Below, one piece after another: positions 44,039 through 48,711 of a stretch of DNA of 64,000 nucleotides. The first letter of the stretch is position 1. Each line of letters opens with the position of its first letter. Source of the DNA: Aquibaculum arenosum (GTDB lineage: Bacteria; Pseudomonadota; Alphaproteobacteria; Kiloniellales; DSM-21159); NCBI RefSeq assembly GCF_029222965.1, contig NZ_JARHUD010000005.1, forward strand, positions 248,001-312,000. Direction: 5' to 3'. The notes below the pieces were generated by a model, which made no database searches, had not been told where the DNA came from, and was given only the letters and a program-made list of their open reading frames with translations. The translations under genes were made by a program, and so were the position numbers.

Positions 44039-44848
44039 ATGATAATCGGGGGGCGGCAGGGGGCGAGTATCAGCAGACGTCGGTTCGGCTTAGCCTGCTC
44101 GGCCTTGCTTGCCACGCAGTTTCCCCCTGCCTGTCTGCTGAGCCTGTTGCCATCACGGTGGGCGGCTATGTTTTTCCGCCCTTCGTGGACGTGGCGGCAG
44201 ATGGTTCCCCGGCGGGGCTCACGTTGAATGTGATCGAATGGCTCAATGCATCGCAGTCTGACTACCGCTTCTCGTTCTTCCTGACCTCCCCGGCTCGCCG
44301 CTTCGATGATTTCGAGTCGGGGCACTTCGATGCCATGTTCTTTGAAAGTCCCGAGTGGGGCTGGAAGAACAGGCAAATTCCGATCGACGCGACAGAGGTG
44401 TTCCTGCTCGACTACGACATTTTCGTTACGCGCAAGCTCGAGGGACGAACCCAGAGCTTCTTCGACGATTTGGGTGATAAGCGCGTCGCGGGAATACTGG
44501 GCTATCACTATGCCTTCACCGGCTTCGAGCATGATCCGGACAAACTGGAAAGCGAGCACGGCATGATCTTGGTCAATGACAATCGTGCCGCGATTCAGCT
44601 TGTTCTCGCGCACCGGGCCGACATGGCTATCGTAGCCCGATCCTATCTGGACTATTATCTCGGCCAAACGGGGGGAAGGGGACTCGGGCCTTTTGATGTC
44701 AGATACGCCTGATCAAATCTATCGCTACCGCGCTCTGCTGCGCCCGGAGTCACCGCTAGAGGTCAAGAAGCTTTTCACCTGGATCAGCCGGGCGATTGAC
44801 GATCTGGGCTATGCCGATCGCTGGATGGGGACCGAAGGCAGCCTATGA
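44039..44848 (+). pseudogene. Periplasmic solute-binding protein (SBP_bac_3-like), frameshifted, linked to siaABCD
   Basis: The gene is split over reading frames. The middle (to a TGA at 44710-44712) reads EPVAITVGGYVFPPFVDV and continues through FFESPEWGWKN, a family-3 solute-binding fold. Its C-terminus continues in the next frame (SDTPDQIYRYRALLRPESP to TGA 44846-44848), where the stop overlaps the siaA start as ATGA. Removing one G from the GGGGGG run at 44670-44675 would join them. A Tat-like leader (SRRRFGLACSALLA) lies in the third segment's frame from ATG 44039, suggesting a second shift near the CCCCC run at about 44125. Alternatively translation starts at TTG 44008. It is either a recent pseudogene or a homopolymer sequencing error. 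Confidence 0.7.
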
Positions 44849-46386
44849 GCGGCTTCTCCGGCACTGGTAAGGCCGATCACCGCAGGCTGCGCGATTCGGA
44901 GCTCGCCGCGCGGCTGCTGTTCCGCACCTTCCCCTTCATCGCGCTGATCGTCCTGCTGACCCAGGGCACCATCGCCTGGCTGGACTATCGCGATCGCTAC
45001 GAGCAACTTGAGCAGCGAGTCACCGTCGTCGCTCACCTAACTGCCGAAGCCTTGGCCCGGCCGGTGTGGATGCTTGACCGCCCCACATATGCCGCACAGG
45101 TCAGCGCCATTGAACAGGATCCGGCCTTCGTTGCTGCGCGCATATTCGGCGAGAGTGAAGAGGAGATGCTGTCGATCACCAGTGAGCGCTCGACTGCAGC
45201 GGGCACGATCACGGCCTCCAGCGATATTCTAGACCCCCGTGGCTCCGTCATCGGACGCTTCGAGTTGGTAATGAGTCAGGAGGAATTGCGGCGGGCTTTG
45301 CAGCGGCAGCTCCTCATAGCACTCAGTGCCATTGTCATTCTGCTGCTCGGCTCCTCCATCGCCTTCCACTACGCGGTGCGGCACCTCGTGATCACGCCGC
45401 TCGAACAGATGCTGGAAGCCATGCGTCTGGTCGAACGAAAGGTCTGGCCGCACCTGGGGTGGAAACGCAAAGACGAGCTTGGACGCGCAGGGCGTGCCTT
45501 TGACAGCATGGTCAGCGGCCTGAAAAGCGGTGACGAAGCAAAGCGCCTGCTGGATGAACTGCAGCAGACCCAGAACGCCCTCGTAGAGAAGAACGCGGAA
45601 ATCGAATCGGCGCATCGGCAGATCACAGAGAGTCTGAACTACGCGCGGAAGATCCAGGAAGGGCTGATGGCCGATCCGGCGGACCTGGAGCGCCATTTCG
45701 TGGAAGCTGAACTGCTCTGGCGCCCGCTGCAGCGGGTGGGCGGCGACCACTGCTGGGTGGTGGAGCAAGGCGGCCGCTGTGTGATCTTCCTGGCCGACTG
45801 CACCGGACATGGGGTGCCTGGCGCCTTTATGTCCCTGATCACGGCCTCGGCCCTGGATCAGGCGCTGCGGCAGAGCCACACGCCCTCCCCGTCCCGCTTG
45901 CTCTACAGCGTGGATCGCCTGGTCCGACAGCACCTCTCGCACAGCGCCAACAACGAAGCTGACGATGGCCTAGATGCCGCCTGCTGTGTCTATGACCCTG
46001 AGCGCGGCGAGTTGCACTATGCCGGTGCCAGCATCCCTCTGCTGCTGCAGCGCAACGGCAAGATGGAGACCATAGCGGCCACCCGCGGCAGCCTGGGGTA
46101 TCAGTCCCTGCTGCCACCCGGGGAAATGCCCGAAACACGCATCAGCATCGAACCGGGTATGAGCTTCTACCTCTTCACTGACGGTGTGACCGACCAGATG
46201 GGCGCACCGGACCCGCACAGCCGCCAGCGGCTGTTCGGACGCCGGCGTATGCTGCGGGTGTTACAGCAGTACGCTGAACTCCCGCTGAAAGAACAACTGG
46301 CACGATCGGAAGAAGCGCTCGCGAGCTGGCGCGGCAACGAGCCACCCCGCGACGACTATACACTTGTCGCCTTCCGTCCCCTATAA
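44845..46386 (+). CDS. siaA: SiaA-type membrane PP2C (SpoIIE-like) phosphatase
   Basis: A 513-residue sensor phosphatase: membrane span 26-46, periplasmic domain 47-155, second span 156-176, HAMP about 178-230, coiled coil to 265, SpoIIE/PP2C domain 275-513. Metal-binding Asp residues are visible in GGDHCW (Asp301), ADCTGHGVPGAFMS (Asp318), FTDGVTD and RDDYTL. In Pseudomonas, SiaA dephosphorylates SiaC, which then activates SiaD. It overlaps the end of the binding-protein gene by 4 bp, so the periplasmic domain may read out that protein. Confidence 0.9.
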   Translation: MSGFSGTGKADHRRLRDSELAARLLFRTFPFIALIVLLTQGTIAWLDYRDRYEQLEQRVTVVAHLTAEALARPVWMLDRPTYAAQVSAIEQDPAFVAARIFGESEEEMLSITSERSTAAGTITASSDILDPRGSVIGRFELVMSQEELRRALQRQLLIALSAIVILLLGSSIAFHYAVRHLVITPLEQMLEAMRLVERKVWPHLGWKRKDELGRAGRAFDSMVSGLKSGDEAKRLLDELQQTQNALVEKNAEIESAHRQITESLNYARKIQEGLMADPADLERHFVEAELLWRPLQRVGGDHCWVVEQGGRCVIFLADCTGHGVPGAFMSLITASALDQALRQSHTPSPSRLLYSVDRLVRQHLSHSANNEADDGLDAACCVYDPERGELHYAGASIPLLLQRNGKMETIAATRGSLGYQSLLPPGEMPETRISIEPGMSFYLFTDGVTDQMGAPDPHSRQRLFGRRRMLRVLQQYAELPLKEQLARSEEALASWRGNEPPRDDYTLVAFRPL

Positions 46387-46417
46387 ACCCCATCAGAGGT
46401 ATGAAGGGCAAAACTGT

Positions 46418-46996
46418 ATGACACACACCGGGGGTGCATCGAGCGGGCTGGCCAAAACCTATCTCGCTTTCAAACGGGACCAGGACGAAACCGGTGCCAT
46501 TCTCTCTTACAGCGGCTTCGTGTCAGAAGCGATCCTCTTCGCGCTTGGCGAAACACTGCGTCGGCGGGTTGAACAAGAGGAGAGCGACAGCAACCGGACC
46601 AAGCGGCTGTTCTCCGTTTTCGTCGAGCAGGTCCAGAACATCATCCGTTATTCCTCGGAGAAGCTCCCGCAGCGGGATCCGGATGACGGAATGCTCGGCT
46701 CCGGACTTGTTTCGGTGGGTAAGGACGGGCAGAACTTCTTCATTGTCTGCGCCAACACGCTGGAACGCTCTCGCAAGGAGGCTTTGCGCGAGCGGCTAAC
46801 GCGGCTGTCGGCGCTCGATAAGGACGAACTGAGAACCGTTTATCGAGAGAAGCTGCGCGAACCGCCCGAGGAAGGCAGCCTGGGCGCGTCGCTTGGCCTC
46901 ATCGAGATCGCGCGGCGTTCAAGCCGACCGATCGAGTTTGATTTCGTCGACATTGATGACCAACGCTCCTTCTTTTGCCTGAAGGTCCATGTATGA
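46418..46996 (+). CDS. siaB: SiaB-family protein kinase
   Basis: A 192-residue protein of the SiaB/DUF6272 type with a histidine-kinase-like ATPase fold. RLFSVFVEQVQNIIRYSSE around 65-85 corresponds to the N-box (Glu and Asn), and GSLGASLGLIEIARRSS near 155-171 to the glycine-containing ATP lid and following helix. In Pseudomonas, SiaB phosphorylates SiaC, opposing SiaA. ATG 46418 follows AAGGG; its stop overlaps siaC as ATGA. Confidence 0.88.
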   Translation: MTHTGGASSGLAKTYLAFKRDQDETGAILSYSGFVSEAILFALGETLRRRVEQEESDSNRTKRLFSVFVEQVQNIIRYSSEKLPQRDPDDGMLGSGLVSVGKDGQNFFIVCANTLERSRKEALRERLTRLSALDKDELRTVYREKLREPPEEGSLGASLGLIEIARRSSRPIEFDFVDIDDQRSFFCLKVHV

Positions 46997-47385
46997 CCAG
47001 CGATCCCAAAATCATCGAAATCCCTTCTGGAGAGCGCTCCCCCTATATTTCTTTTGATTTCACCAATGGTCTGATGAAGATCAGTGGCGAATCTTACCCT
47101 GAGGATGCGGCTGCCTTCTTCGGACCGCTTTTGAAGGAAATCAAGGATCAATTGAGCACGCCTGGACCAGATCTCGTCCTCGACCTCAATCTGGCCTACT
47201 TCAATTCCAGCAGCGCCAAAGCCCTGATGAACATCTTCCAGATGCTTGAAGACGCTGCTGCCCAAGGGCGCAAAGTCTCGATCAACTGGCACTACCATAC
47301 CGACGACGACACCATGGAGGAGTTCGGGCACGACTTCGCCGAGGATTTCCAGCACGTCTCCTTTGCGCTTCAACCTTACAGTTAG
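46993..47385 (+). CDS. siaC: SiaC-family regulatory phosphoprotein (DUF1987)
   Basis: A 130-residue STAS-like switch protein. The core motif LDLNLAYFNSSSAKALMNIF (63-82) matches the family helix that carries the phosphorylation site. In Pseudomonas the modified residue is Thr68; here the equivalent is a Ser, probably Ser72. Unphosphorylated SiaC binds and activates SiaD. It overlaps siaB by 4 bp and ends 3 bp before siaD, giving near-stoichiometric expression. Confidence 0.9.
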   Translation: MTSDPKIIEIPSGERSPYISFDFTNGLMKISGESYPEDAAAFFGPLLKEIKDQLSTPGPDLVLDLNLAYFNSSSAKALMNIFQMLEDAAAQGRKVSINWHYHTDDDTMEEFGHDFAEDFQHVSFALQPYS

Positions 47386-47388
47386 CCA

Positions 47389-48249
47389 ATGTCGAACAAA
47401 CGGAAGCAGACCGACGAGAAGCCGGACGGCTTTACTCTCTTCGACGCGGAAGAGCGACTCATTCTTGAGTCCGAAGAGATGGTCGAGATGCTTCATCGGG
47501 CGGCTGACCGTCTGGAATGGATGTCTAAGGTCGTGCGCCAGAGTCTGCGCGAGCAACGCCGGCTCATTCGCCTGAGCGACCGCAGCCAGCTCGAACTTCA
47601 GGTGGCCAACCGCAGTTTGGCCGATCAGGCCAAGGAACTGACCCGGCTGAACACGGCGCTGCAGCAGGAGATCGTACGCGGCGAAGAACTGACTGAAGAA
47701 CTCCGACGCCAGGCAACGGTCGACATGCTCACCGGCACCGCCTCACGACGCCACTTCTTCACTCTGGCCGAGCGGGATCTGCGAAACGCGCAGCGATTCA
47801 GCGAAACCTTGGCCGTGCTGCTGATCGATCTCGATCACTTCAAGGAGATCAATGACCGCCACGGGCATGCAGTCGGCGATGAGGTGCTCAAGCACTTCGG
47901 TCAGGTCTGCAACGAGGTCTTCCGCAACATCGACACTGTGGGTCGGCTCGGCGGCGAAGAGTTTGCCGTCCTGCTGCCGCGCACCAATGCCGCTGCCGCG
48001 GAAATTGTCGCTGCGCGCTTTCTACGCCACCTCAGCGACTCACATGTGCCCCTGGACGACGGAACAAGCCTGCACTACCAGGCCTCGGTGGGAATAGCGG
48101 AGTGTCACCCTGAGGATGACACCATCGAGCGCGCCTTGGCGCGGGCGGACACGGCGCTTTACCTGGCCAAGCAAAGCGGGCGCAACTGCTACAGGCTCTA
48201 TACGGAAGAGACCGATGAACCCTCGGCGGGTTTGCGGCGCAGTATCTGA
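47389..48249 (+). CDS. siaD: SiaD-type diguanylate cyclase
   Basis: A 286-residue cytosolic protein with an N-terminal helical/coiled-coil part (about 20-108), the SiaC-interacting region in known SiaD, and a GGDEF domain (about 109-275). The active site is GGEEF (188-192). An RxxD inhibitory site, RNID (179-182), is exactly five residues upstream, so product inhibition by c-di-GMP is expected. It makes c-di-GMP from GTP and so controls attachment or biofilm. Its last 52 bp overlap the convergent MaoC gene. Confidence 0.92.
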   Translation: MSNKRKQTDEKPDGFTLFDAEERLILESEEMVEMLHRAADRLEWMSKVVRQSLREQRRLIRLSDRSQLELQVANRSLADQAKELTRLNTALQQEIVRGEELTEELRRQATVDMLTGTASRRHFFTLAERDLRNAQRFSETLAVLLIDLDHFKEINDRHGHAVGDEVLKHFGQVCNEVFRNIDTVGRLGGEEFAVLLPRTNAAAAEIVAARFLRHLSDSHVPLDDGTSLHYQASVGIAECHPEDDTIERALARADTALYLAKQSGRNCYRLYTEETDEPSAGLRRSI

Positions 48250-48674
48250 ACCGTTTCCAGCCGCATCACTTCTTCGCGCCGTTGGTTGAACACGCGATAG
48301 AGCATGGTCACGATGCCCCGGTCGGGCTTCGATTGAGAAGCGCGCGCGTCCAGCACTTCAAGTTCGGTTCTGATCGTATCTCCGGGCCGCACAGGCCGCA
48401 TCCAGCGCAACTTGTCCATTCCGGGCGAACCCAGACTGGCAGCGGTGAAAATGCGCGCCTGCACCACCATGCGAAAAGCCGCGCAGAGCGTATGAAAGCC
48501 GCTGGCGATCAGTCCGCCATAACCCCAGCTTTCCGATGCCTCGACATCGATGTGAAAGGGCTGCGGATCCCACTGCAAGGCAAAGTCCAGGATCTGCGAC
48601 TCGCTCAAGGTGACGCCCCGGGTCTCGAAGCGGCGACCGACGGTGAAATCCTCAAACCAGAGATCCTGCGACAT
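48198..48674 (-). CDS. MaoC-family dehydratase
   Basis: A 158-residue hotdog-fold protein. FEDFTVGRRFETRGVTLSESQI at the start, FALQWDPQPFHIDVEAS with the hydratase-2 Asp/His-type positions, and GGLIASGFHTLCAAFRM are typical. Predicted to hydrate or dehydrate an enoyl/3-hydroxyacyl-CoA. ATG 48674 follows AAGGGA; a GTG one codon earlier is also possible. Its 3' end overlaps siaD on the opposite strand by 52 bp. Confidence 0.88.
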   Translation of the reverse strand: MSQDLWFEDFTVGRRFETRGVTLSESQILDFALQWDPQPFHIDVEASESWGYGGLIASGFHTLCAAFRMVVQARIFTAASLGSPGMDKLRWMRPVRPGDTIRTELEVLDARASQSKPDRGIVTMLYRVFNQRREEVMRLETVQILRRKPAEGSSVSSV

Positions 48675-48711
48675 CACTGCGTCCCTTCTTCCTCATACCG
48701 CTTCGATACCA

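Follow-up and report, generated by a model that had tools for sequence, protein, structure and literature searches.

A complete SiaABCD partner switch in Aquibaculum arenosum and the periplasmic binding-protein genes beside siaA in its relatives

The siaABCD operon and the split gene upstream of siaA

The window analyzed here, a stretch of 64,000 nucleotides of the Aquibaculum arenosum genome (contig NZ_JARHUD010000005.1), carries a complete siaA-siaB-siaC-siaD operon, which encodes a partner switch for biofilms of the type that controls cyclic di-GMP (c-di-GMP) in Pseudomonas aeruginosa, and, immediately upstream of siaA, the sequence of a periplasmic solute-binding protein (Table 1). The four genes stand in one operon-like row, the arrangement that defines a SiaABCD switch, at the coordinates given by a first-pass annotation. 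The junctions of 3 to 31 bp or overlaps announced by that annotation proved correct (31 bp between siaA and siaB, an ATGA overlap between siaB and siaC, and 3 bp between siaC and siaD), as did the intactness of the key motifs. SiaD combines the three features by which such a cyclase is recognized, namely the SiaC-binding stalk motif (RLIRLSDR), the I-site (RNID) and the GG(D/E)EF signature (GGEEF), while SiaB carries EQVQN and SiaA the Asp motifs of PP2C phosphatases; the residues counted here are those that we take to be key.

Table 1. Coordinates of the features discussed in the text (positions of the window, unless preceded by a locus handle).
Feature	Coordinates	Strand	Description
Binding protein, possible N-terminal part	44039-44227	+	Signal-peptide-like (SRRRF...); own frame stops at 44227
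Binding protein, body	44131-44712	+	193 codons and stop; frame 1; stop at 44710-44712
Binding protein, C-terminal tail	44690-44848	+	Differs in frame from the body; TGA overlaps the siaA ATG
siaA	44845-46386	+	Membrane PP2C phosphatase, 513 amino acids (SpoIIE/PP2C 2.7e-29); periplasmic domain of ~116 amino acids between two predicted transmembrane helices, weak HAMP match, SpoIIE domain
siaB	46418-46996	+	SiaB-family protein kinase (DUF6272/SiaB 1.2e-42)
siaC	46993-47385	+	SiaC regulatory phosphoprotein (PF09345 7.1e-43)
siaD	47389-48249	+	Diguanylate cyclase (PF00990 GGDEF 2.2e-43)
Convergent gene	48198-48677	-	Overlaps the 3' end of siaD
Effector gene after siaC, example	L035:6950-7972
Effector gene after siaC, example	L042:3964-5010
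Effector gene after siaC, example	L049:7043-8023
Effector gene after siaC, example	L016:4227-5297

Gene set and order, the PP2C phosphatase, the SiaB kinase, SiaC, and a SiaD with stalk, I-site and GGEEF are all as in P. aeruginosa. Unlike its P. aeruginosa counterpart, the 513-residue SiaA of the window has a small periplasmic domain and resembles the SiaA equivalog model (NF038263) at residues 154-511 only, with 222 bits where the cut-off is 700. SiaB passes NF038262 (194.7 bits for a cut-off of 85) and is thus a SiaB-family kinase, and stays below the stricter equivalog NF038264 (103.5 of 225 bits). SiaC exceeds the cut-off of PF09345 and falls below that of the equivalog NF038265 (104 of 150), and SiaD likewise falls below NF038266 (154 of 290). 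The nearest solved structures are 6k4f for SiaC (8.7e-21), chain A of 6kko for SiaB (5.7e-20) and 6k4e for the SiaA phosphatase domain (4.5e-39); superposition of the SiaA model on the latter (Z 30.1, root-mean-square deviation 2.5, 242 residues aligned) identifies its PP2C fold as that of SiaA. Aligned to 6k4f, the window's SiaC has Ser where P. aeruginosa SiaC has Thr68; among 69 SiaC open reading frames of the first locus sets this position is Ser in 59 and Thr in 6, the other 4 being unread by the pattern used. Downstream, the convergent gene overlaps siaD by ~50 bp, provided that the ends were called correctly, and is 89% identical to its counterpart in a member of the sister genus (hereafter the sister).

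According to the first-pass annotation, a solute-binding protein gene precedes siaA with an ATGA overlap and is fused to the switch by translation coupling. The homology is real and the ATGA exists, in the frame of the tail; the gene is not one open frame. The frame of the body, which is the one following that of the ATG at 44039 and of the tail, ends 132 bp before siaA, and the coupling finds no support in the window. The sister's protein, encoded in a single frame of 273 codons, matches the window in two frames by tblastn, at 44152-44664 (53% identity) and at 44690-44773 (71%), and the tail aligns to the sister's C-terminal part with 58% identity over 36 amino acids and 71% over 28. Codon log-odds point to frame 1 in the body (+0.20, +0.29) and to frame 2 in the tail (+0.22), and leave the frame of the first 90 bp undecided. 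The break between body and tail is clear and an additional one near the N-terminus is probable, and both frame changes fall in or close to stretches of C or G. The idea of an unbroken binding-protein gene in the window was rejected on account of the different frames of body and tail, and a search of the genome for a second strong copy found none.

The break reflects either recent damage to the gene or wrong printed bases near the C and G runs. That the gene has truly become a pseudogene in this species, with SiaA working alone by sensing directly, for instance the state of the membrane, comes close to an even chance without reaching it. This explanation accounts for the frame change between body and tail, and for the possible second one, in a locus where siaABCD themselves are intact. 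The sister contig has 52 called genes; 39 of them match the window, and the binding-protein gene alone is split over frames (two cross-hits between SecD and SecF and one paralogue hit of low identity were set aside). Moreover, the body departs from the six siaA-linked relatives described below at 9 of 45 columns that are invariant among them (one departure being the first residue of the piece and one lying at the frame change), as against 4 of 40 for the sister, and membrane perturbation has been proposed as an input of SiaA in P. aeruginosa (PMC12834913). Set against this, the body conserves every one of the 14 columns that do not vary across the 14 other aligned family members, and it is 53% identical to the sister, hence any loss must be recent; the protein of genome G110 departs even more in the same test (12 of 48), and loss of the input would leave the switch uncontrolled.

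That the frames were split by an error of sequencing or assembly, with the gene intact in the organism, can be entertained more tentatively. The position of the frame changes at or near C and G runs, the single frame of each of the 14 other members, and the slight decay of conserved residues would all fit. The binding protein occurs (E below 1e-20) in 14 genomes of a class sample of 385, and the window's genome is the only one of these to have its gene as two neighboring pieces. The 9 departures in 45 columns lower the weight of this explanation. The assembly consists of 29 contigs with 100% completeness, and a general frame-error problem was considered and found unsupported, as none of the other sister genes that match the window was broken. 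Unless the break is such an error, the binding-protein input was probably lost recently in the window's own genome.

Binding-protein genes beside siaA in other genomes

The annotation had proposed looking for the pair elsewhere, and six other genomes proved to have a window-type binding-protein gene immediately before siaA: the sister, three members of the alphaproteobacterial genus Tistrella, G110, and the alphaproteobacterial metagenome-assembled genome (MAG) nN3bin14. An intact binding-protein gene beside the receptor gene, missing in the window, is present in these six relatives, and "coupled and intact", which fails in this genome, holds in relatives. The two genes overlap by 4 bp in G110, and by a GTGA in the sister if its siaA starts at GTG (the gene caller chose a start 98 bp further on). 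In G110 and nN3bin14 (loci L035 and L099), the pair is separated from the effector gene and from siaB and siaC, which points to SiaA as the partner of the binding protein. The pairing of the binding protein with siaA is no accident.

The family assignment and the fold were approached separately. On the SBP_bac_3 profile (PF00497, cut-off 26.4 bits), the window's body scores 13.6 bits and the sister's protein 19.8, both below the cut-off. The fold was assigned on the sister's protein, not on the window's piece: its model (predicted local distance difference test score, pLDDT, 87) adopts the fold of class II amino-acid binders, with 8gtu as best fold match (5.3e-14, template modeling scores 0.55/0.62) and a profile match to AncCDT-1 (1e-8).

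Binding proteins of other types adjoin sia genes as well. Among 58 SiaB loci, a set retrieved with one protein query and biased toward its relatives, 31 have a binding-protein gene beside the sia genes: 2 of window type, 13 with the gene between siaD and siaA (9 Chromatiaceae, 3 Rhodospira/Roseospira and 1 Rhodocyclaceae MAG), 11 of a type found in 10 Thioalkalivibrio and 1 Nitrincola, 4 PotD-like, and 1 LivJ-like (Aquaspirillum). The PotD-like genes lie in Magnetococcales (L055, L056, L058 and L059; one of the four was scanned by NCBIfam), upstream of a siaA that encodes a periplasmic domain of ~270 amino acids. Genes adjoining sia belong to SBP_bac_3 in 27 of 76 cases and to SBP_bac_8 in 4, with one more LivJ-like, whereas of 97 non-adjacent control genes 3 matched Peripla_BP_6 and no more than 3 SBP_bac_3 (an upper bound, from the 25 families listed). 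Binding proteins are thus enriched among the adjacent genes (32/76 vs. 6/97, odds ratio 11, p 1.7e-8, kinship ignored). In the same set of adjoining genes, CheB_methylest occurs in 2 of 76, and reading by eye located a response-regulator/CheB-like gene just upstream of siaA, with no binding protein, in L047, L050, L156 and L158.

A phylum-wide sample, in which SiaC passes its cut-off in 65 of 398 genomes, supplied 40 further SiaC loci chosen by hand. Of 22 adjacent genes there, 6 were scanned with Pfam (3 are not binding proteins) and the rest were judged by our own profiles or by eye; genes were called throughout with a simple codon-score script, and gene starts are approximate. Once duplicates were removed, 38 of 104 distinct loci had a binding-protein gene beside the sia genes, counts in which related genomes are not independent and some loci are truncated by the edge of a contig. 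The neighbor is found in 38 of 67 loci with a membrane SiaA, in 0 of 19 whose SiaA has no predicted membrane helix (Fisher p 2.4e-6 for these two groups; L052, at least, is truncated in the second), and in 0 of 18 without siaA nearby.

Sensor domains and effectors at the two ends of the switch

When 50 SiaA proteins are clustered by their predicted periplasmic segments, the clusters follow the type of binding protein. The Chromatiaceae and Thioalkalivibrio types share one sensor cluster (24 of 25 linked to a binding protein) and their sensors are homologous by profile comparison (99.95%). The window-type cluster is linked in 7 of 8 cases (L026 and L096, one record, are counted twice in it), the PotD-type cluster in 4 of 4 and the single LivJ-type sensor in 1 of 1, and the remaining 12 proteins in none. 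Profile comparison gave no support for a link between the window-type sensor and those of the Chromatiaceae and Thioalkalivibrio types (8% and 2%). In the SiaA model (pLDDT 70 overall), the periplasmic domain has helices and four strands; no Pfam family was found for it, and the structure matches of the model were filled by the phosphatase domain.

The binding proteins themselves, labeled W (window type), C (mainly Chromatiaceae) and T (mainly Thioalkalivibrio), are connected by weak to moderate profile links (W-C 80% probability over 76 columns, W-T 24%, C-T 66%), which fall short of uniting them in a single family; they may still share descent within class II. Comparison of the PotD and LivJ types with W, C and T gave no clear link (at most 9%). 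By sequence comparison, the sia-linked binding proteins comprise at least three unrelated groups (family-3-like, PotD-like and LivJ-like), and the pairing of several unrelated binding proteins with related switches points to a switch that can be fitted with different chemical sensors.

The output end varies too. Complete genes of more than 150 amino acids that directly follow siaC on its strand, at a distance of up to 200 bp, number 82; of these, 51 encode GGDEF, 12 HD_5 (with GAF in 13), 10 a class III cyclase and 9 a HATPase domain (families can overlap). The strict stalk motif is present in 66 of these 82 genes and in 8 of 655 other called genes of 200-750 amino acids in the loci. In the Pseudomonas-like locus L156, the motif (KVARISDR) starts at residue 77 and so falls on K77, R80 and R84, the residues that contact SiaC according to PMC8457831. 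That paper also suggests a general role for DUF1987 (SiaC) proteins as modulators of adjacent proteins. We lean slightly toward regarding SiaABC as a general plug-in switch with exchangeable ends, in which at least three unrelated groups of binding proteins were recruited independently to membrane SiaA, and the docking site of SiaC is a single conserved stalk motif, joined to enzymes as different as diguanylate cyclases, class III nucleotide cyclases, histidine kinases and GAF/HD proteins.

A proposed ligand-responsive switch and its relation to known systems

These loci probably encode a SiaABCD partner switch in which the membrane phosphatase SiaA has evolved to take its input from a solute-binding protein, a separate partner in the periplasm. 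In relatives with an intact gene, which precedes siaA and in some of them overlaps it, the binding protein would close around a small ligand, as its modeled fold, that of amino-acid binders, suggests. The ligand-loaded protein would then dock on the small periplasmic domain of SiaA and alter the activity of the cytoplasmic PP2C domain; both the docking and the sign of the response are what we infer. SiaC would thereby lose or keep the phosphate placed on it by SiaB, and SiaC, when dephosphorylated, would activate SiaD to make c-di-GMP. What is observed here is the genes, the repeated linkage between them, and its correlation with the topology of SiaA and the type of its sensor domain; the phosphorylation logic is taken over by analogy from P. 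aeruginosa, where SiaB phosphorylates SiaC, SiaA dephosphorylates it, and unphosphorylated SiaC binds and activates SiaD via the stalk (PMC7647112, PMC8457831). The ligand-to-c-di-GMP circuit proposed by the first-pass annotation is a fair inference for the family and may not work in A. arenosum, whose gene is split over frames.

Several observations weigh against this reading. The window's own binding-protein gene is broken as sequenced. Only 5 of the 40 phylum-wide SiaC loci have a binding-protein neighbor (3 new ones, L155, L174 and L181, with SBP_bac_3 above the cut-off, and 2 re-fetched contigs), hence the link is not general, and the counts are not independent, since 10 of the 11 loci of one type are Thioalkalivibrio. 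L112 and L161 have siaA without such a neighbor, and the sensor domain in L112 is window-like. The effector of L035 and L099 is a histidine-kinase-type ATPase, and those loci give no support for a c-di-GMP output. In the class sample, SiaC occurs in 5 of the 14 genomes with the binding protein, which itself occurs in 5 of 12 with SiaC over the cut-off; the other 9 of the 14 have no SiaC. These standalone homologues led nowhere as a clue to a shared partner, as the 8 nearby genes in the 6 of 9 loci scanned are unrelated (antiporters, TRAP permease, DUF1194, SecD, squalene/phytoene synthase, NUDIX and cyclophilin). Finally, neighboring genes for binding proteins and receptors (kinases) can be functionally unlinked (PMC11113362).

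The homologues in genomes without SiaC and the known cases of unlinked neighbors would also suit a binding protein that is a plain uptake component or an orphan, placed beside siaA by chance, which we consider unlikely. No transporter gene lies directly beside the binding-protein gene in the window, where its neighbors are siaA on one side and, on the other side and the opposite strand, a weakly class-V-aminotransferase-like gene followed by a phosphoglycerate-dehydrogenase-like gene. Furthermore, the linkage recurs, was seen only with membrane SiaA, and tracks the changing sensor domains.

The system is best seen as a known module with a new variant on its input side, together with the caveat specific to this genome. 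A close analogy is NspS-MbaA of Vibrio cholerae and Sinorhizobium meliloti, in which a periplasmic binding protein feeds a membrane receptor that controls c-di-GMP, an arrangement suggested here by the genes; the Magnetococcales loci, with a PotD-like binder upstream of siaA, come nearer to it. MbaA itself makes or breaks c-di-GMP, whereas the receptor here is a phosphatase that would act through SiaC. RmcA of P. aeruginosa also uses a family 3 binding domain as c-di-GMP input (PMC8846402), and this domain (7ejg) ranks 50 among the fold matches of the sister's binding protein; there, however, the SBP_bac_3 domain is fused to a phosphodiesterase with no partner switch, and here the binding protein has a gene of its own. 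YfiN/DgcN (PRK09966) gave a weak profile match to SiaA residues 34-254 (3.8e-4, 19.5 of the 325 bits needed), too weak to establish homology, and differs in output and partner. Within the Sia systems, L156 and L158, judged Pseudomonas-like by size and sequence, have a response-regulator-like gene and no binding protein upstream of a 656-residue SiaA, unlike the window. A literature search, with most subscription papers outside its reach, found no publication linking a binding protein to the Sia switch; the sole paper mentioning SiaA, SiaC and "solute-binding protein" is unrelated and concerns Streptococcus.

Carbon availability (PMC7647112) and a temperature-linked membrane change (PMC12834913) have been proposed as inputs of SiaA in P. 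aeruginosa. A dedicated binding protein beside siaA makes the question of SiaA input directly testable, as purified proteins could be screened for ligands. If the proposed circuit is true, uptake-type proteins would be tied to c-di-GMP via a phosphatase partner switch, rather than via a histidine kinase or a receptor cyclase.

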